NCBI GenBank assembly: GCA_013348725.1
Contig: CP054689.1
Coordinates: 732,501 to 796,500 of the forward strand
Reading direction: 5' to 3'
Length of the DNA stretch: 64,000 nt
From: Ectothiorhodospiraceae bacterium 2226
Lineage (GTDB): Bacteria; Pseudomonadota; Gammaproteobacteria; GCA-013348725
Part shown: positions 8,833-54,669 of the stretch, in pieces
Numbering within the stretch: the stretch's first letter is position 1
Layout of the letters: the number at the start of each line of letters is the position of its first letter
The notes under the pieces: model-generated
What the model saw: only the letters and a program-made list of their open reading frames with translations
The model's database searches: none
What the model was told of the DNA's origin: nothing
Made by a program: the position numbers and the translations under genes

Positions 8833-10575
8833 ATGGAGCGGTGGCTGACGGGCTGGAGCTCAGAAACTCCCCTGGCCGATAGCCTGCTGCTCGCTCTGGG
8901 CAGCGATCCCTGGATCTGGGTCGTCGCGGTGGCCGTCCTGGCCGGCACGGCCTTGGCGGCGCTGGACGTCACCCGCCTCAATCGTAAGCTGCACCGCGAG
9001 GTCGCCGAGCGCCAGCGCGCGGAGCAGGAGCTACGCAAGAGCGAAGCCGCCTTGCGTGCGCTGCACGGCATCATGACGGCGCCCGGAACGGACTTCGCCG
9101 CCAAGCTCAACGACCTGCTCGAGATGGGCTGCGAGCGGTTTCGCCTCAGCGACGGTCTGATTGCGCGCCACGAGGGCGACAGCTACGAGATCATGGCCGC
9201 GGTGGGCGCGGCGGCGGCGCCGGACACGGCGCTTGCGCTGACCGATGCCAGTTGCGAGCAGGCCCTCACCCAGGACGCGCCGCACGCCGTGCGTGATGCC
9301 TCGGGGCGCACCTCGTTCTGCATGCGTCTTGTGATCGAAGGCCAGCTCTACGGTATCCTGCACTTCAGCGGCCGCGGTCGGCCGGCGGACTTCAGCCCGA
9401 CCGACGGCGAGATCCTGAAGCACATGGCGCAGTGGCTGGAGGGCGAGATCCAGCGACGCCGCGCCGAGTCGGAGATGCGCAAGCTCTCCAGCGCGCTGCA
9501 GAACATCGCCGACAGCGTCGCCATCACCGACCAGCACGGCGTCATCCGGTACGTGAACCCCGCGTTCACGGCGATGACCGGGTATGCGAAAGACGAGGTC
9601 TTGGGGCGCACGCACCGCATCCTCAAGTCCGGCGTTCATGACGAGGGGTTCTACGAGCAGATGTGGGGCACGATCCGCGCCGCAAAACCCTTTCGCGCCC
9701 AGTTCGTCAACCGGCGCAAGGACGGTGCGCTCTATTACGAAGAGAAGACCATCACGCCGCTCACCGACTGGCACGGTGAAGTGCGCTCCTTCGTTTCCAC
9801 CTCCCACGACATCACCGAACGCATCCAGACCGAGGAGCAGCTGCGCCAACACCACGCGGAACTGGCGCACGCGGGGCGCCTGACCCTCATGAGCGAGATG
9901 GCCTCCGGCTTCGCGCACGAGTTGAACCAGCCGCTCACGGCCATCGTGAACTATGCCCAAGGCAGCATGCACCGCCTGCGCAGCGGCCGCGGCGACACCG
10001 AGGCGTTGATCACGGCGTTGCAGGAGATCACGCGCCAGGGGCAGCGCGCGGGCGAGATCATCCGGCGCATCCGCCGCTTCATCCGCAAGGATCAGCAGCA
10101 TCAGGCCTCCACCCAACTCAACGAGCTGGTGCGCGAGGCGCTCAACATGGCGGCGGCGGACATGCGACGGGCCGGGATCCGCGTCGTGCTGAATCTCGAC
10201 GACGATCTGCCGCCGGTGGTGGCCGACACCATCCAGATCGAACAGGTCATCCTCAACCTGATCCGCAACGCGATCGACGCGATGCAGCAGGAGGAGGCCG
10301 CCGAACGCGTGCTGACGATACGCACGAGCCTCGGCCCGGACGGCCAGGTGGAAGTGGCCATCCACAACACCGGCAGCGCGGTTCCGGAGGAGAACCGCGA
10401 GTTGATCTTCCAACCCTTTTTCACGACCAAGCCGACGGGGCTCGGTCTCGGGCTGTCGATCAGCCGATCCATCATCGAAGCCCATGCCGGTCACCTCTGG
10501 ATGATTCCCGAGGCGAGCGGCAGTACCTTCCGATTCTTCTTACCCATCGCGGGAGACCCCAAGGATGAGCCCTAA
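8833..10575 (+). CDS. Sensor histidine kinase, TM-GAF-PAS-HisKA-HATPase (FixL-type)
   Basis: One membrane segment lies at residues 27-46, followed by a short coiled coil, a GAF-like region (about 85-205), a PAS domain (218-330, with VNPAFTAMTGY and a PAC tail), the dimerisation helix with phosphoacceptor His362 (FAHELNQPL), and a HATPase domain with N box NLIRNAID and G box GLGLGLS. The HELNQP form of the H box is typical of the FixL/TtrS/DctB group. The signal is unknown. The gene overlaps its response regulator by 11 bases, so the pair is an operon. An AAGG ribosome site precedes the ATG. Confidence 0.92.
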   Translation: MERWLTGWSSETPLADSLLLALGSDPWIWVVAVAVLAGTALAALDVTRLNRKLHREVAERQRAEQELRKSEAALRALHGIMTAPGTDFAAKLNDLLEMGCERFRLSDGLIARHEGDSYEIMAAVGAAAAPDTALALTDASCEQALTQDAPHAVRDASGRTSFCMRLVIEGQLYGILHFSGRGRPADFSPTDGEILKHMAQWLEGEIQRRRAESEMRKLSSALQNIADSVAITDQHGVIRYVNPAFTAMTGYAKDEVLGRTHRILKSGVHDEGFYEQMWGTIRAAKPFRAQFVNRRKDGALYYEEKTITPLTDWHGEVRSFVSTSHDITERIQTEEQLRQHHAELAHAGRLTLMSEMASGFAHELNQPLTAIVNYAQGSMHRLRSGRGDTEALITALQEITRQGQRAGEIIRRIRRFIRKDQQHQASTQLNELVREALNMAAADMRRAGIRVVLNLDDDLPPVVADTIQIEQVILNLIRNAIDAMQQEEAAERVLTIRTSLGPDGQVEVAIHNTGSAVPEENRELIFQPFFTTKPTGLGLGLSISRSIIEAHAGHLWMIPEASGSTFRFFLPIAGDPKDEP

Positions 10576-11233
10576 ACCAACAGTGTTCGTCGTAGATGAC
10601 GACACCGCCGTGCGCGAGTCGCTGCGTTGGCTCATCGAGTCCGTCGGACTCGACGTGCACACCTACGCGTCGGCACGCGAATTCCTGGAGTCCATGGAAC
10701 CGTCCCAGACCGGGTGTCTGGTGCTGGACATCCGCATGCCCGGCATGAGCGGTCTGGAGTTGCAGGAAGCGCTCGCCGAACGGGGCTCGGCGCTGCAGGT
10801 CATCATCGTCACCGGGCACGGCGACGTGCCCATGGCGGTGCGGGCCATGAAAGCCGGCGCCTCCGACTTCATCGAGAAGCCGTTCAACGACCAGATGCTG
10901 CTGGATCGCATCCAGCAGTTGCTGAAGAAGGCCGAAGACAGCTGGGAGACCCAGGCGCGCCGCGAACGCATCATGGGGCGCTACGAGCACCTCACGCCAC
11001 GCGAGCGCGAGGTCATGGCGCTGGTCGTGGAGGGCAAATCCAACAAGCGCATCGCGCTCGACCTCGGCGTCAGCGCGAAGACCATCGAAGTCCACCGGGC
11101 AAAGGTGATGGAAAAGATGGAAGCCGGCTCGCTCGCCGATCTGGTGCGCATGTCGCTGGCCATCGATCCGGAGGACGAAGCAGGCGCAGCCGGGCGACCG
11201 GCGGCCGGCAACCGCACCCGCTCGGGCACCTGA
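10565..11233 (+). CDS. FixJ-type response regulator
   Basis: This 222-residue protein has a receiver domain with acidic residues DDD (11-13), phosphoacceptor Asp55, Thr83 and Lys105, and a LuxR/FixJ-type helix-turn-helix at about 143-200 (LTPREREVMALVVEGKSNK, then KTIEVHRAKVMEKM). It overlaps the kinase gene and would activate transcription when phosphorylated. The next features downstream are a palindrome and a candidate Csr-type RNA, which are plausible targets by analogy with GacA/UvrY (also LuxR-type) control of Csr RNAs. That link is inference. Confidence 0.92.
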   Translation: MSPKPTVFVVDDDTAVRESLRWLIESVGLDVHTYASAREFLESMEPSQTGCLVLDIRMPGMSGLELQEALAERGSALQVIIVTGHGDVPMAVRAMKAGASDFIEKPFNDQMLLDRIQQLLKKAEDSWETQARRERIMGRYEHLTPREREVMALVVEGKSNKRIALDLGVSAKTIEVHRAKVMEKMEAGSLADLVRMSLAIDPEDEAGAAGRPAAGNRTRSGT

Positions 11234-11319
11234 TCGTGATGCGTTTCACGATTACACGCGCCCGCCCGGTCGCCGCTGGGGAGCCCTGCGAAGCGTGCCG
11301 CGCCCCGGGGTCCTAATGA

Positions 11320-11338
11320 CGGCAATAAATTATTGCCG
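11320..11338. promoter_or_regulatory. Operator-like palindrome upstream of the GGA-rich RNA
   Basis: CGGCAATAA-A-TTATTGCCG is a perfect 9-bp inverted repeat with a single central base. Its centre (11329) lies about 42 bases upstream of the transcription start predicted from the -10 at 11359, the usual place for an activator that overlaps the -35 region. It differs from the GacA consensus (TGTAAG-N6-CTTACA). A hairpin role at the end of the fixJ-like transcript is possible, but no T tract follows. Confidence 0.45.
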
Positions 11339-11358
11339 GAACGGGAACCCAGTCACAC

Positions 11359-11372
11359 TATAACTGTATGAT
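11359..11372 (+). promoter_or_regulatory. Candidate -10 region for the GGA-rich RNA
   Basis: TATAACTG at 11359-11366 and TATGAT at 11367-11372 are both good sigma-70 -10 matches. The best -35 candidate is TTGCCG at 11333-11338, 20 bases upstream of the first, which is longer than ideal and lies inside the palindrome. A weak -35 with a well-placed palindrome suggests activator dependence. The same TATAACTG octamer recurs in front of the second candidate RNA at 22409. Confidence 0.4.
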
Positions 11373-11930
11373 TTTGCTGGATCGTACGGGATTTCCCCCA
11401 AGGTTTTCAGGAATCGCAGGGGTGTGCGCACCCCCTCCGCCTCCCTACACTGCTCCCCAAGGTCGCAAGCATCACGGAAGACGGCGCGACCGGCGAAGAA
11501 GGAGCTTTGCACGCAGGCCTGAGACCTCATGGAATGAGGCCTTACGCCAGGGAGACCGGACGGTCGCCAAGCACCTCGCCCGCAGGGAGCGGGACCCGAG
11601 GCAGGGAAAGCCCGGAGGCGCTTGGCAAGCTCGGACAGGAGGTCCGAGGGGCTTAGAGGCCACTCAAGGAAGAGTCGCTGGAAGAATGTAAGGGAACGGG
11701 AGTACGCCAGGGAAGGGAGGGAAGAGCCGCGGGTGGGCCGCAAGACAGCGGCGGCGTCAGGAAGACGCGAATATGCACAGGGAACGCGACAGGAAGTCGC
11801 TCCAAGGATGGACCGCCCGCTCGCTCACTGCAATCTAACTAACAGCCGTTCAGGGAGGCTGGCCGCCCAAGGACGGGCACTATCAGGGGTCTCCTGCGGG
11901 AGACAGGGACGAACACGGAGAAGGACTTCG
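11372..11930 (+). ncRNA. Candidate CsrB/RsmZ-type CsrA-sponge RNA (or Csr-controlled long leader)
   Basis: This stretch has no credible gene but holds over 25 GGA triplets on the plus strand, most of them ANGGA or AGGGA. Many sit in the loop of a perfect hairpin: CCTCAT/ATGAGG (11525-11539), CCCGC/GCGGG with loop AGGGA (11579-11593), CTCGGAC/GTCCGAG with loop AGGAG (11630-11648), ACTC/GAGT (11662-11675), GCGTC/GACGC with loop AGGAA (11754-11768), GCGAC/GTCGC with loop AGGAA (11786-11800), TCCA/TGGA (11801-11812), CAGCC/GGCTG (11843-11861) and GCCC/GGGC (11865-11878). This is the hallmark of RNAs that titrate CsrA/RsmA. No T-tailed terminator is visible before pilZ, so the 3' end is unknown and it may read into pilZ. 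Confidence 0.75.
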
Positions 11931-11934
11931 ATCT

Positions 11935-12321
11935 ATGGAACATCGCTGGAGTATGCGCAGGGACGTACTTTTGGACGCGGTGCTGTACCGCAACGGCATC
12001 ACGCGATGCCGCGTGTCCGACCTCAGCCTCAACGGCATGTTCGTCGAGACGAGCGACGCACCCGGTCTCGAAGAGGGTGCGGTGGTCGAGGCAGCCTTTA
12101 TGCTCCCGCGCGGCGGCCAGTCGAGCTTCTGCCGCCTGCACGCCAAAGTGGCGCGCGTGACGACCGAAGGGGCTGCGCTCACCTTTCTCGACTTCGATCT
12201 GGAAGCGCTGCATTCGCTGCACGAACTCTACCGCCTCGACCAGGACGAGGACGACGATCTGGGCGCCCCCACAGGCGCGGGATCGCAGCCCTGCTTGGTG
12301 TTTCTAACCTGCAACGCCTGA
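11935..12321 (+). CDS. PilZ-domain protein
   Basis: The 128-residue protein has the c-di-GMP-binding signature: an RxxxR-type arginine cluster near the N-terminus (HRWSMRRDV) and DLSLNG matching the (D/N)xSxxG motif at about residue 30, followed by the PilZ beta barrel. It is a single-domain PilZ protein and probably a cytoplasmic c-di-GMP effector. The ribosome site GGAGAAGGA (11917-11925) itself contains GGA motifs of the Csr-binding type, so CsrA could control translation. A perfect hairpin follows at 12418. Confidence 0.85.
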   Translation: MEHRWSMRRDVLLDAVLYRNGITRCRVSDLSLNGMFVETSDAPGLEEGAVVEAAFMLPRGGQSSFCRLHAKVARVTTEGAALTFLDFDLEALHSLHELYRLDQDEDDDLGAPTGAGSQPCLVFLTCNA

Positions 12322-51636: not shown

Positions 51637-54600
51637 ATGCAGATCATAACCTCAACTCGCTATCTCCTGAACTCGCTTTTCCTGGTAGTGCTACTGGTTT
51701 CATCGGCGGTGGCGGAGGACATCGACCTATTCCTGATACCGCCCCCCGATCCAGACAGCGATATCTTGCCGAATGTCCTTCTCATTATTGATAATTCGGC
51801 GAACTGGGGTTCTAGTTTCGACGACCCCGTCCATAAGACTAGGCGTGACGCATTGAAGGCCGCGCTGGACGCAATCCTGAGCAATGAGGGGCTGCAGAAT
51901 CAGTTCCGGCTCGGGATCATGCGGTTTAACCCTTCGGGAAGCAGTGCGGGCGCCCACGTGTACGCACCCATACGAACCCTAACGGCCGAGTACCAACAGG
52001 ACCTCCGCACCAAGATCGCCGCGTGGACCCACCAGGACGATGGCACAAACAACAGCCCCTTCGCGCATACGATGAACGACGCGTACCGGTACTTCGCAGG
52101 CGCTGAGCTACGCAATGGGCCGGAGGACGAGGACGGCCCCAATCATCGGGATGCCCTCAACGAGGCGCGAACGCATTACGTCGCCCCGCCCAATTCCGAC
52201 TGCCAACGCAACTACATTGTGTTTATCGGGTTTGGAGGACCATCGGAAAACGACACTCAAGCGGGTCGAGCGCTTCGCGATATTGGCGGGAGCACCGACT
52301 ACAAGATAGAGATCATCGATTACGACCAGTTCGAGGACAACTGGATGGACGAGTACGCGCGTTATCTAGCGCGTCTCGATCCTGACCCCAACAGCGCCCG
52401 CAACATCGTGACGCATACCATTGCCGTTCATGCGAATGAGCGGCAGCGCCAGCCTCTGTCAGCCAGGGCGTTATTGCGGAGTGCGGCCGGGCAAGGACGT
52501 GGGCAGTATTTCGAGCCCGACACTACCGACAAGCTGAAGGATGCGCTGGAGAAGATTCTGACTTCCATCCAGGCGGTAAATAGCGTGTTTGCATCTACCT
52601 CCCTCCCAGTAAGCGTGAACGTACGCGGCACGCACCTCAACCAGGTGTATATGGGGGTGTTCCGTCCGGACGACGGTCCGCGATGGCTCGGCAATCTCAA
52701 GCTCTATCGTCTCGGCTACGATTCGGTAACCGGCCAAGTCTTTCTGGCGGATCGTCGAGGTATCCCTGCGCAAAGTGCAGATACGGGGTTTATCGTTCCC
52801 CATGCGGAAAGCTATTGGACGTACGACAGTGTTAATTATTGGGCTTCGGAGTACCCTGAGCAGCCATCGGACTTGCCTGATGGCGGCATAGTGGAGAAAG
52901 GTGGTGCCGCACAGCAGCAACGCGCAGTATCACACGGCAATCGGTTGGTCTATACGTGCACGGGCAGCTGTAGGACTGGGTCCGGTACCCAGCCGTTCAC
53001 CCTGTTTTCGACCGACAATAGCGACATCACCGCGGCGGCGCTACAAGTCGCCACTGACCAGCGGGATGCCGTGATTAACTGGGCTCGCGGCGCGGACAAC
53101 ACCTCGATTCGGGAACGCCCCGGGGCCGCGACCACGATAACGCGACCGTCCGTACACGGCGACGTGCTGCACTCGCAACCCGCAGTGCTCAACTATAGCG
53201 ACGACAACCTAGAGAACATCGTCGTGTACTACGGCTCCAACGACGGCATGTTTCGGGCGATCCGTGGCGGATACGACGGCGGCCAGGAGCTGTGGAGCCT
53301 TGTTCTACCGGAGTTTTTTGCCGACCTGAATAAGCTCCGGGAGGACGACGCCGTCCCTGGGCAGGCCGGCTGGAAACCCTACTTTGTCGATGGATCGATC
53401 GGCGTTCATCGTCAGATGGGAAGCGACGGCCAGATGGAGCAAGCGTGGTTGTTCCTCAGCATGCGCCGTGGTGGCCGTTTCTTGTACGCGCTGGATGTGA
53501 CAGATGTCGACAACCCTCGCCTGATGTGGCGGCGCGGCCCCGGGATGGAGGGGTACCTATCCGATTCGCATTGGGATGAACTGGGCCAGACGTGGTCGGC
53601 GCCACAAGTCGCCTGGGTCCCCAAGTACGATCGTCCCGTCCTCATCTTCGGTGCAGGCTACGATGCCGCCGCGGAAGACCAGGATCCAGCTGCCGCCGCA
53701 ACCATGGGGCGCGGCATCTTCGTGGTGGATGCCGAAAACGGCGACGTCCTGTGGCGCGCCGGTCCGCCCGACTCGGGGGCGCACGTCGAAGTGGAAGGGA
53801 TGGAGTTCAGCGTGCCGGCGGATATCGCGGTGGTTCGCTCCGACCGCCCCTACGCAGACCGGCTGTACTTCGGCGACACGGGCGGGAACATCTGGCGCGT
53901 GTCTATCCCCGATAATCCGGACGAGCCTTTCGAGGACTGGTCGGTCACCAAGCTTGCCCAGCTTGCGGGCGGGCAAGAGCGGAAGTTCCTGTTCCGCCCT
54001 GATGTCGTTCGGGGCACTGACGACTACGGGCAGTTCTATGGAATCGCGATCGGCAGCGGCAATCGGGAGGCGCCCTTCCGAACCGACGTACAAGATCGTT
54101 TTTACATGGTCAAGGACCGACCCCAAACGTTTGAAACGGACGGAACAGACGGAACAGATGGGACGGATGGGACGGATGGGACGGATGGAACGGATGAGGA
54201 ACAACCGTATCAACCGACTCAGTATCCGTTGGAAAACGCTGACCTTACGGATGTAACTGACGGTTCCTCGGGAACAGTCACGCGCAACGGTTGGTACGTC
54301 AACCTGGGACCAGCAGAGAAGACGGTCGGCACGGCGCAGACGCTCGCGAATACCGTGACCTTCGCCACCAACCAACCCGCGCCGCCGGCGGCCGGCTCAT
54401 GCGCAGCACTGGGTATCGCCCGTATCTACTCCATTGACTTCCGCAATGGTGCGGGGCGGCTCGAGGGGGGCGAGCGTGCTCAGATCGTCCCCGGCGGCGG
54501 CTTTCCGCCCTCGCCCGTTTACTTCATCACGACGATTGAGGACGACGAGGGCAATACGCGTCTTGTGGAAGGCTCGATGCTCGGCACCAACATCGCGCCC

Positions 54601-54669
54601 AGCCAGTCGGAGCCGCTGCAACGGCGCACGCGGACATTCTGGTATCGCGATTACGAGGACGACAACTGA
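51637..54669 (+). CDS. pilY1: PilY1-like pilus tip adhesin/retraction regulator
   Basis: The 1010-residue protein has a signal peptide (cleavage near SSAVA-ED), an N-terminal VWA-like region with degenerate MIDAS (LLIIDNSANWGSSF, where DxSxS is expected), and a C-terminal PilC-type beta-propeller (NIVVYYGSNDGMFRAI, LYALDVTDVDNP, FVVDAENGDVLWRAG, RLYFGDTGGNIWR). PilY1 sits at the pilus tip. Codon use in the first 650 codons is clearly less GC-biased than in the pilins, suggesting this gene or part of it was acquired separately. A TDG repeat is at 54136-54198. It is the last gene in the operon before a terminator. Confidence 0.92.
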   Translation: MQIITSTRYLLNSLFLVVLLVSSAVAEDIDLFLIPPPDPDSDILPNVLLIIDNSANWGSSFDDPVHKTRRDALKAALDAILSNEGLQNQFRLGIMRFNPSGSSAGAHVYAPIRTLTAEYQQDLRTKIAAWTHQDDGTNNSPFAHTMNDAYRYFAGAELRNGPEDEDGPNHRDALNEARTHYVAPPNSDCQRNYIVFIGFGGPSENDTQAGRALRDIGGSTDYKIEIIDYDQFEDNWMDEYARYLARLDPDPNSARNIVTHTIAVHANERQRQPLSARALLRSAAGQGRGQYFEPDTTDKLKDALEKILTSIQAVNSVFASTSLPVSVNVRGTHLNQVYMGVFRPDDGPRWLGNLKLYRLGYDSVTGQVFLADRRGIPAQSADTGFIVPHAESYWTYDSVNYWASEYPEQPSDLPDGGIVEKGGAAQQQRAVSHGNRLVYTCTGSCRTGSGTQPFTLFSTDNSDITAAALQVATDQRDAVINWARGADNTSIRERPGAATTITRPSVHGDVLHSQPAVLNYSDDNLENIVVYYGSNDGMFRAIRGGYDGGQELWSLVLPEFFADLNKLREDDAVPGQAGWKPYFVDGSIGVHRQMGSDGQMEQAWLFLSMRRGGRFLYALDVTDVDNPRLMWRRGPGMEGYLSDSHWDELGQTWSAPQVAWVPKYDRPVLIFGAGYDAAAEDQDPAAAATMGRGIFVVDAENGDVLWRAGPPDSGAHVEVEGMEFSVPADIAVVRSDRPYADRLYFGDTGGNIWRVSIPDNPDEPFEDWSVTKLAQLAGGQERKFLFRPDVVRGTDDYGQFYGIAIGSGNREAPFRTDVQDRFYMVKDRPQTFETDGTDGTDGTDGTDGTDGTDEEQPYQPTQYPLENADLTDVTDGSSGTVTRNGWYVNLGPAEKTVGTAQTLANTVTFATNQPAPPAAGSCAALGIARIYSIDFRNGAGRLEGGERAQIVPGGGFPPSPVYFITTIEDDEGNTRLVEGSMLGTNIAPSQSEPLQRRTRTFWYRDYEDDN
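54136..54198 (+). repeat. 9-bp in-frame tandem repeat in pilY1
   Basis: Seven units of 9 bases, consensus ACGGATGGG with variants (ACGGACGGA, ACAGACGGA, ACAGATGGG, ACGGATGGA and ACGGATGAG), encode a Thr-Asp-Gly run of about six units between the beta-propeller and the C-terminal part. The repeat length is a multiple of three, so slippage would change linker length without frameshift. Confidence 0.9.

Follow-up and report, generated by a model that had tools for sequence, protein, structure and literature searches.

A GGA-hairpin array between a FixJ-type regulator gene and pilZ as a predicted CsrA-sequestering RNA

The gap between a FixJ-type response regulator gene and a pilZ gene in the 64-kb window (the whole stretch of DNA that was analysed) carries a dense array of small hairpins with GGA in their loops, and this region quite probably encodes a CsrA-sequestering RNA. 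Such a sponge RNA had been proposed in the first-pass annotation and is upheld here: the count of GGA in loops lies far above that of shuffled controls, csrA is present in the genome, and the metrics of the array match those of E. coli CsrB. Computationally, the sponge reading has good support, with CsrA binding itself being a prediction. CsrA sponges in the literature are usually free sRNAs controlled by Gac. For the present array, a sponge leader of about 475 nt at the head of the pilZ mRNA is favored over a free sRNA, with confidence that is roughly even.

Locus layout and non-coding nature of the gap

The gap, reported earlier as about 700 bases, measures 701 nt from the end of the regulator gene at 11233 to the pilZ start at 11935. 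The features of the locus are as follows.

8833..10575, plus strand: gene for a PAS-domain sensor histidine kinase (Pfam PAS, HisKA, HATPase_c), the upstream partner of the response regulator
10565..11233, plus strand: gene for the FixJ-type response regulator (receiver and LuxR/GerE HTH; Pfam Response_reg, GerE), the proposed activator, whose order with pilZ is kept in several other genomes
11320..11338, no strand assigned: perfect 19-bp palindrome CGGCAATAAATTATTGCCG, a candidate second regulator site by sequence
11388..11397, no strand assigned: GGGATTTCCC box, the proposed operator of the response regulator, with the same box at pilZ of other genomes
11446..11451, plus strand: possible -10 element TACACT, picked by eye from the sequence, with a predicted start site near 11458
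11458..11930, plus strand: GGA-hairpin array, non-coding, with 11 perfect-stem GGA-loop hairpins, 13 CANGGA, and about 20 ANGGA
11917..11939, plus strand: three GGAs (11917, 11923, and 11937) spanning the ribosome-binding site and the second codon of pilZ, sequence ACGGAGAAGGACTTCGATCTATGGA
11935..12321, plus strand: pilZ, encoding a PilZ-domain protein (Pfam PilZ 1.2e-7)

The RNA had been drawn over 11372-11930 (about 560 bases). Of this extent, about 11470-11930 stands as the array proper, whereas 11372-11450 resembles promoter sequence. The translated PilZ protein contains the c-di-GMP-binding motifs RxxxR (RWSMR) and DxSxxG (DLSLNG). The description of the gap as resistant to protein annotation also holds, as all six frames have negative codon scores (compared with +0.49 for the response regulator and +0.34 for pilZ) and Pfam matches none of the ORFs across the array; a coding origin was rejected on these grounds. 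The array region is single-copy in its own genome, and a genomic repeat element was rejected on that basis.

Repeats of another kind occur elsewhere in the window, where a run of GGACGGAT-type repeats at 54130-54200 encodes a (TDG)n stretch within a 1010-aa ORF (51637-54669). Judged by eye only, this ORF resembles PilY1 and follows pilin-like ORFs.

GGA density and placement in hairpin loops

More than 25 plus-strand GGA motifs had been claimed, and 32 are counted in 11372-11930, 19 of them as ANGGA, making this the top window of the 64 kb. In 559-nt windows sliding over both strands, GGA averages 7.6 +/- 3.8 and reaches its maximum of 33 at the regulator-pilZ gap, where ANGGA stands at 21 against a mean of 1.2 +/- 1.7. 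The GGA count at the gap is far from chance. Between 11450 and 11934, the plus strand holds 29 GGA in 485 nt (6.0 per 100 nt), the top density on both strands of the 64 kb, while the reverse strand of the array holds 4, with 0 in hairpin loops.

The placement of GGA in loops was scored on stochastic samples from ViennaRNA ensembles. For 11450-11934, the expected number of GGAs inside hairpin loops is 13.5 of 29. Dinucleotide shuffles give 3.1 +/- 1.2 (maximum 6.4), and across both strands of the whole window the runner-up outside the array scores 4.9. Since the in-loop fraction of 0.46 also exceeds the 0.156 +/- 0.046 of shuffles that keep the GGA count, the loop excess does not come only from high GGA content. 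The count against shuffled controls, put forward in the first-pass annotation as a check, thus places the array far above both dinucleotide and GGA-preserving shuffles.

A hairpin census, in which a perfect Watson-Crick stem of at least 4 bp had to close a loop of 3-8 nt containing GGA, gives 11 hairpins with stems of 4-7 bp, where at least nine small GGA hairpins had been noted before. GGA-preserving shuffles yield 2.95 +/- 1.41 (maximum 8, n=100), and 485-nt windows of the 64 kb yield 0.76 on average, with a maximum of 5 outside the array. The four exact AGGGA, AGGAG, or AGGAA loops previously assigned to perfect 5-7 bp stems are all present, each on the plus strand.

11584, plus strand: cccgc-AGGGA-gcggg
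11637, plus strand: ctcggac-AGGAG-gtccgag
11759, plus strand: gcgtc-AGGAA-gacgc
11791, plus strand: gcgac-AGGAA-gtcgc

The hairpins of the array have loops in common on unrelated stems, and are therefore not simple duplicates of a unit; the recurrence of the same loops on unrelated stems points to selection on RNA. The overall folding energy of the array is only moderately low (z -2.3). Near its 3′ side, at about 11889-11904, lies a strong hairpin, GTCTCCTGCGGGAGAC, leaving about 30 nt to the pilZ start.

The Csr system of the same genome

The genome encodes one csrA, a 64-aa ORF with a full Pfam score (PF02599, E 1.1e-25), which removes the objection, anticipated in the first-pass annotation, that the genome might have no CsrA. 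It also has an ortholog of GacA/UvrY (47% identity to E. coli UvrY) at G000:C1:114216-114848, with uvrC close downstream. In addition, a sequence-pattern search of the genome returned a second GGA-rich place, locus L062, where an RsmY/Z-like sRNA (L062:1498-1608; G000:C1 about 2757513-2757623) lies beside fdxA. This sRNA is flanked by fdxA and a thioredoxin-like gene, with mutS nearby, and displays repeated CAGGGA/CAGGAA motifs (GTCAGGGACGAATCGAAGTCAGGGAACACGACGGACG...CAGGCAGGAAGCCTG...), followed by an intrinsic terminator consisting of a strong terminal hairpin and eight T; no Rfam model matches it at E<=5. In pseudomonads, rsmZ has an fdxA/mutS neighborhood and a GacA box (PMC4353343). The L062 RNA is likely the free sponge sRNA of the organism, and the array would thus be an additional sponge rather than the sole one.

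Putative promoter and control of the array

A sigma-70 scan recognized no plus-strand promoter upstream of the array. The GGGATTTCCC box occurs in exact form in the regulator-pilZ gap of the window, G034, and G177, and also upstream of an unlinked pilZ in G080, while a one-mismatch form lies upstream of pilZ in G054; the copies near pilZ genes are at window 11388-11397, L043:2183-2192, L092:665-674, and L084:1215-1224. It is reasonable to regard GGGATTTCCC as a putative operator bound by the FixJ-type regulator. The organism's own genome has five copies, of which two others are intergenic (L121 and L122) and are there extended to TAGGGATTTCCCT. The sites at pilZ genes and the intergenic copies form a candidate regulon of the FixJ-type regulator. 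The link to an activator is weakened by spacing, since the distance from GGGATTTCCC to the proposed -10 is about 55 nt at the array versus about 30 nt in G034. The 17-base core of the palindrome CGGCAATAAATTATTGCCG occurs once in the window, with 0.02 occurrences expected when up to 3 mismatches are allowed.

The locus had been assigned to the usual context of Gac control, which the present results do not bear out: the regulator next to the array is FixJ-like, GacA/UvrY has its ortholog elsewhere, near uvrC, and the genome has another, RsmY/Z-like sRNA. The best match to a GacA-type box in 11234-11460 has 7/12 positions, although the sRNA beside fdxA reaches no more than 8/12 either, and GacA control of the array was set aside as unsupported. 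The neighboring FixJ-type regulator, rather than GacA, is the likely activator.

Occurrence in other genomes

Elsewhere in the class, as in G034, G054, G066, G080, G177, G205, and G309, a gene for a close relative of the regulator precedes a PilZ gene of the same type. The regulator-pilZ loci inspected there, all from outside the order of the present bacterium, have short gaps and no GGA array. Related arrays were sought at the DNA level in 56 genomes of the class, and the sole match, 48 nt in G013 (80% identity, E 6.7e-4), was rejected given that its locus shows no array. A scan of the genome collection with PilZ gave two distant relatives, neither with an array. Finally, a CAGGGA-triplet pattern matched in 78 of 369 genomes, many of the matches being simple tandem repeats, and every locus it returned had fewer hairpins than the window. 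The array may be confined to this lineage.

Leader of the pilZ mRNA or free RNA

A terminator scan called no terminator-like site between 11233 and 11935. The RNA had been presented as free-standing, a claim that loses its footing because no intrinsic terminator separates the array from pilZ, making a pilZ 5′ leader at least as likely as a free RNA. GGAs stand directly upstream of the pilZ start on the same strand, and those at 11917, 11923, and 11937 likely constitute a putative CsrA site on pilZ itself. The lack of a terminator, the position of the last strong hairpin about 30 nt before pilZ, and the GGAs at the pilZ start favor the leader form, in which one RNA would be both sponge and target.

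In the proposed mechanism, the FixJ-type regulator would switch the promoter on through the GGGATTTCCC box, and transcription would start near 11458 from a promoter just upstream. The first ~475 nt would form a series of small hairpins with CANGGA/AGGA in their loops and a capacity of several to ten or more CsrA dimers. Since no terminator stands in front of pilZ, read-through into the gene is likely, which would make the sponge the 5′ leader of a c-di-GMP receptor mRNA. With CsrA on the last GGAs, the ribosome-binding site of pilZ would be covered, such that pilZ would be translated only once enough leader is made to saturate CsrA.

A possible, if rather doubtful, alternative is a free CsrB-type sRNA, ending near the hairpin GTCTCCTGCGGGAGAC or released from a longer transcript by cleavage, that acts in trans only, with pilZ having its own start. 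The GGA density and loop use are those of CsrB, known CsrB-type RNAs are free sRNAs (PMC7652899), the array has a strong hairpin on its 3′ side, and a Rho-dependent terminator or processing near 11905 could yield such an RNA. However, that hairpin is not followed by a T-run, no terminator was called in the gap while the RsmY/Z-like sRNA of the same genome has a clear one, and the last GGAs extend into the pilZ start. The overlap of GGAs with the pilZ ribosome-binding site and start also agrees with a target that works in cis only, where a long multi-site leader would tightly repress pilZ and a rare transcript would leave CsrA elsewhere unaffected. Translation-repressing CsrA sites in mRNA leaders are standard (PMC7652899), but few sites suffice for control in cis, and about 29 over 475 nt is a CsrB-like excess, which renders this explanation unlikely. 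Least probable by far is that the GGAs arose by chance in a purine-rich intergenic sequence, a misread coding sequence, or a repeat element. The purine excess of the array strand (AT skew 0.33) and the finding of the array region in one genome only are in keeping with such an origin, whereas the loop placement beyond GGA-preserving shuffles, the negative coding scores, and the single copy in the genome speak against it.

Under the leader form, a sponge on the scale of CsrB, housed in a c-di-GMP receptor mRNA and controlled by a FixJ-type two-component system of its own, might tentatively be viewed as a Gac-independent input that lowers CsrA activity, with the receptor made in the same transcript and a threshold set by CsrA. 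If true, a second signal would gain a direct handle on CsrA, and the Csr and c-di-GMP systems would be joined in one molecule by a CsrB-sized sponge fused to the pilZ mRNA.

Comparison with known CsrA-sequestering RNAs

E. coli CsrB and CsrC were taken from MG1655 and scored with the same code as the array. CsrB reportedly contains 22 GGA and binds about 18 CsrA subunits (PMC7652899). The array resembles both RNAs in placing GGA in the loops of short perfect hairpins and in occurring in a genome with CsrA. GGA density is 6.0 per 100 nt in the array, 6.0 in CsrB, and 5.7 in CsrC, the in-loop GGA fraction is 0.46, 0.42, and 0.30, respectively, and perfect-stem GGA-loop hairpins number 11, 7, and 7. 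The array is longer (~475 nt versus 369/246 nt for CsrB/CsrC) and favors CAGGGA/AGGAA loops over the CAGGAUG of CsrB/CsrC. Unlike them, it has no visible terminator, adjoins genes for a FixJ-type regulator and PilZ, and has no Rfam match. The scan with Rfam sponge models, suggested in the first-pass annotation, gave no match to the array at the gathering score or at E<=5, a weak test given that the fdxA-side sRNA was missed too. Sponge RNAs, including the RsmY/Z-like RNA of L062, thus escape current Rfam models, but counting GGA in loops can find them. The CAGGGA/CAGGAA spelling of the array is that of RsmX/Y/Z of Pseudomonas and of L062, for which it is shown here; the L062 RNA (~110 nt, 6 GGA) ends in an intrinsic terminator, whereas the array is longer and shows none.

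Titration of CsrA by 5′ leaders of surface- or motility-related mRNAs, as proposed for the array, has precedents. The Campylobacter jejuni flaA leader is both a CsrA target, repressed by CsrA, and a titrator, and the Salmonella fimAICDHF leader titrates CsrA (PMC4894983). The flaA leader, with its two GGA hairpins, probably binds a single dimer, in contrast to the about 29 GGA of the array, which are on the scale of CsrB. The leader sponges identified here from the literature have few sites, and a CsrB-sized sponge on a pilZ mRNA would differ from them in this respect. Sponges beyond the first have likewise been found through their GGA content in Pseudoalteromonas fuliginea, where the Csr sRNAs Pf1-Pf3 contain 25, 21, and 9 GGA motifs (PMC11882849). 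Pf1-Pf3 are free sRNAs with promoters and rho-independent terminators, unlike the array, which runs up to the pilZ start.
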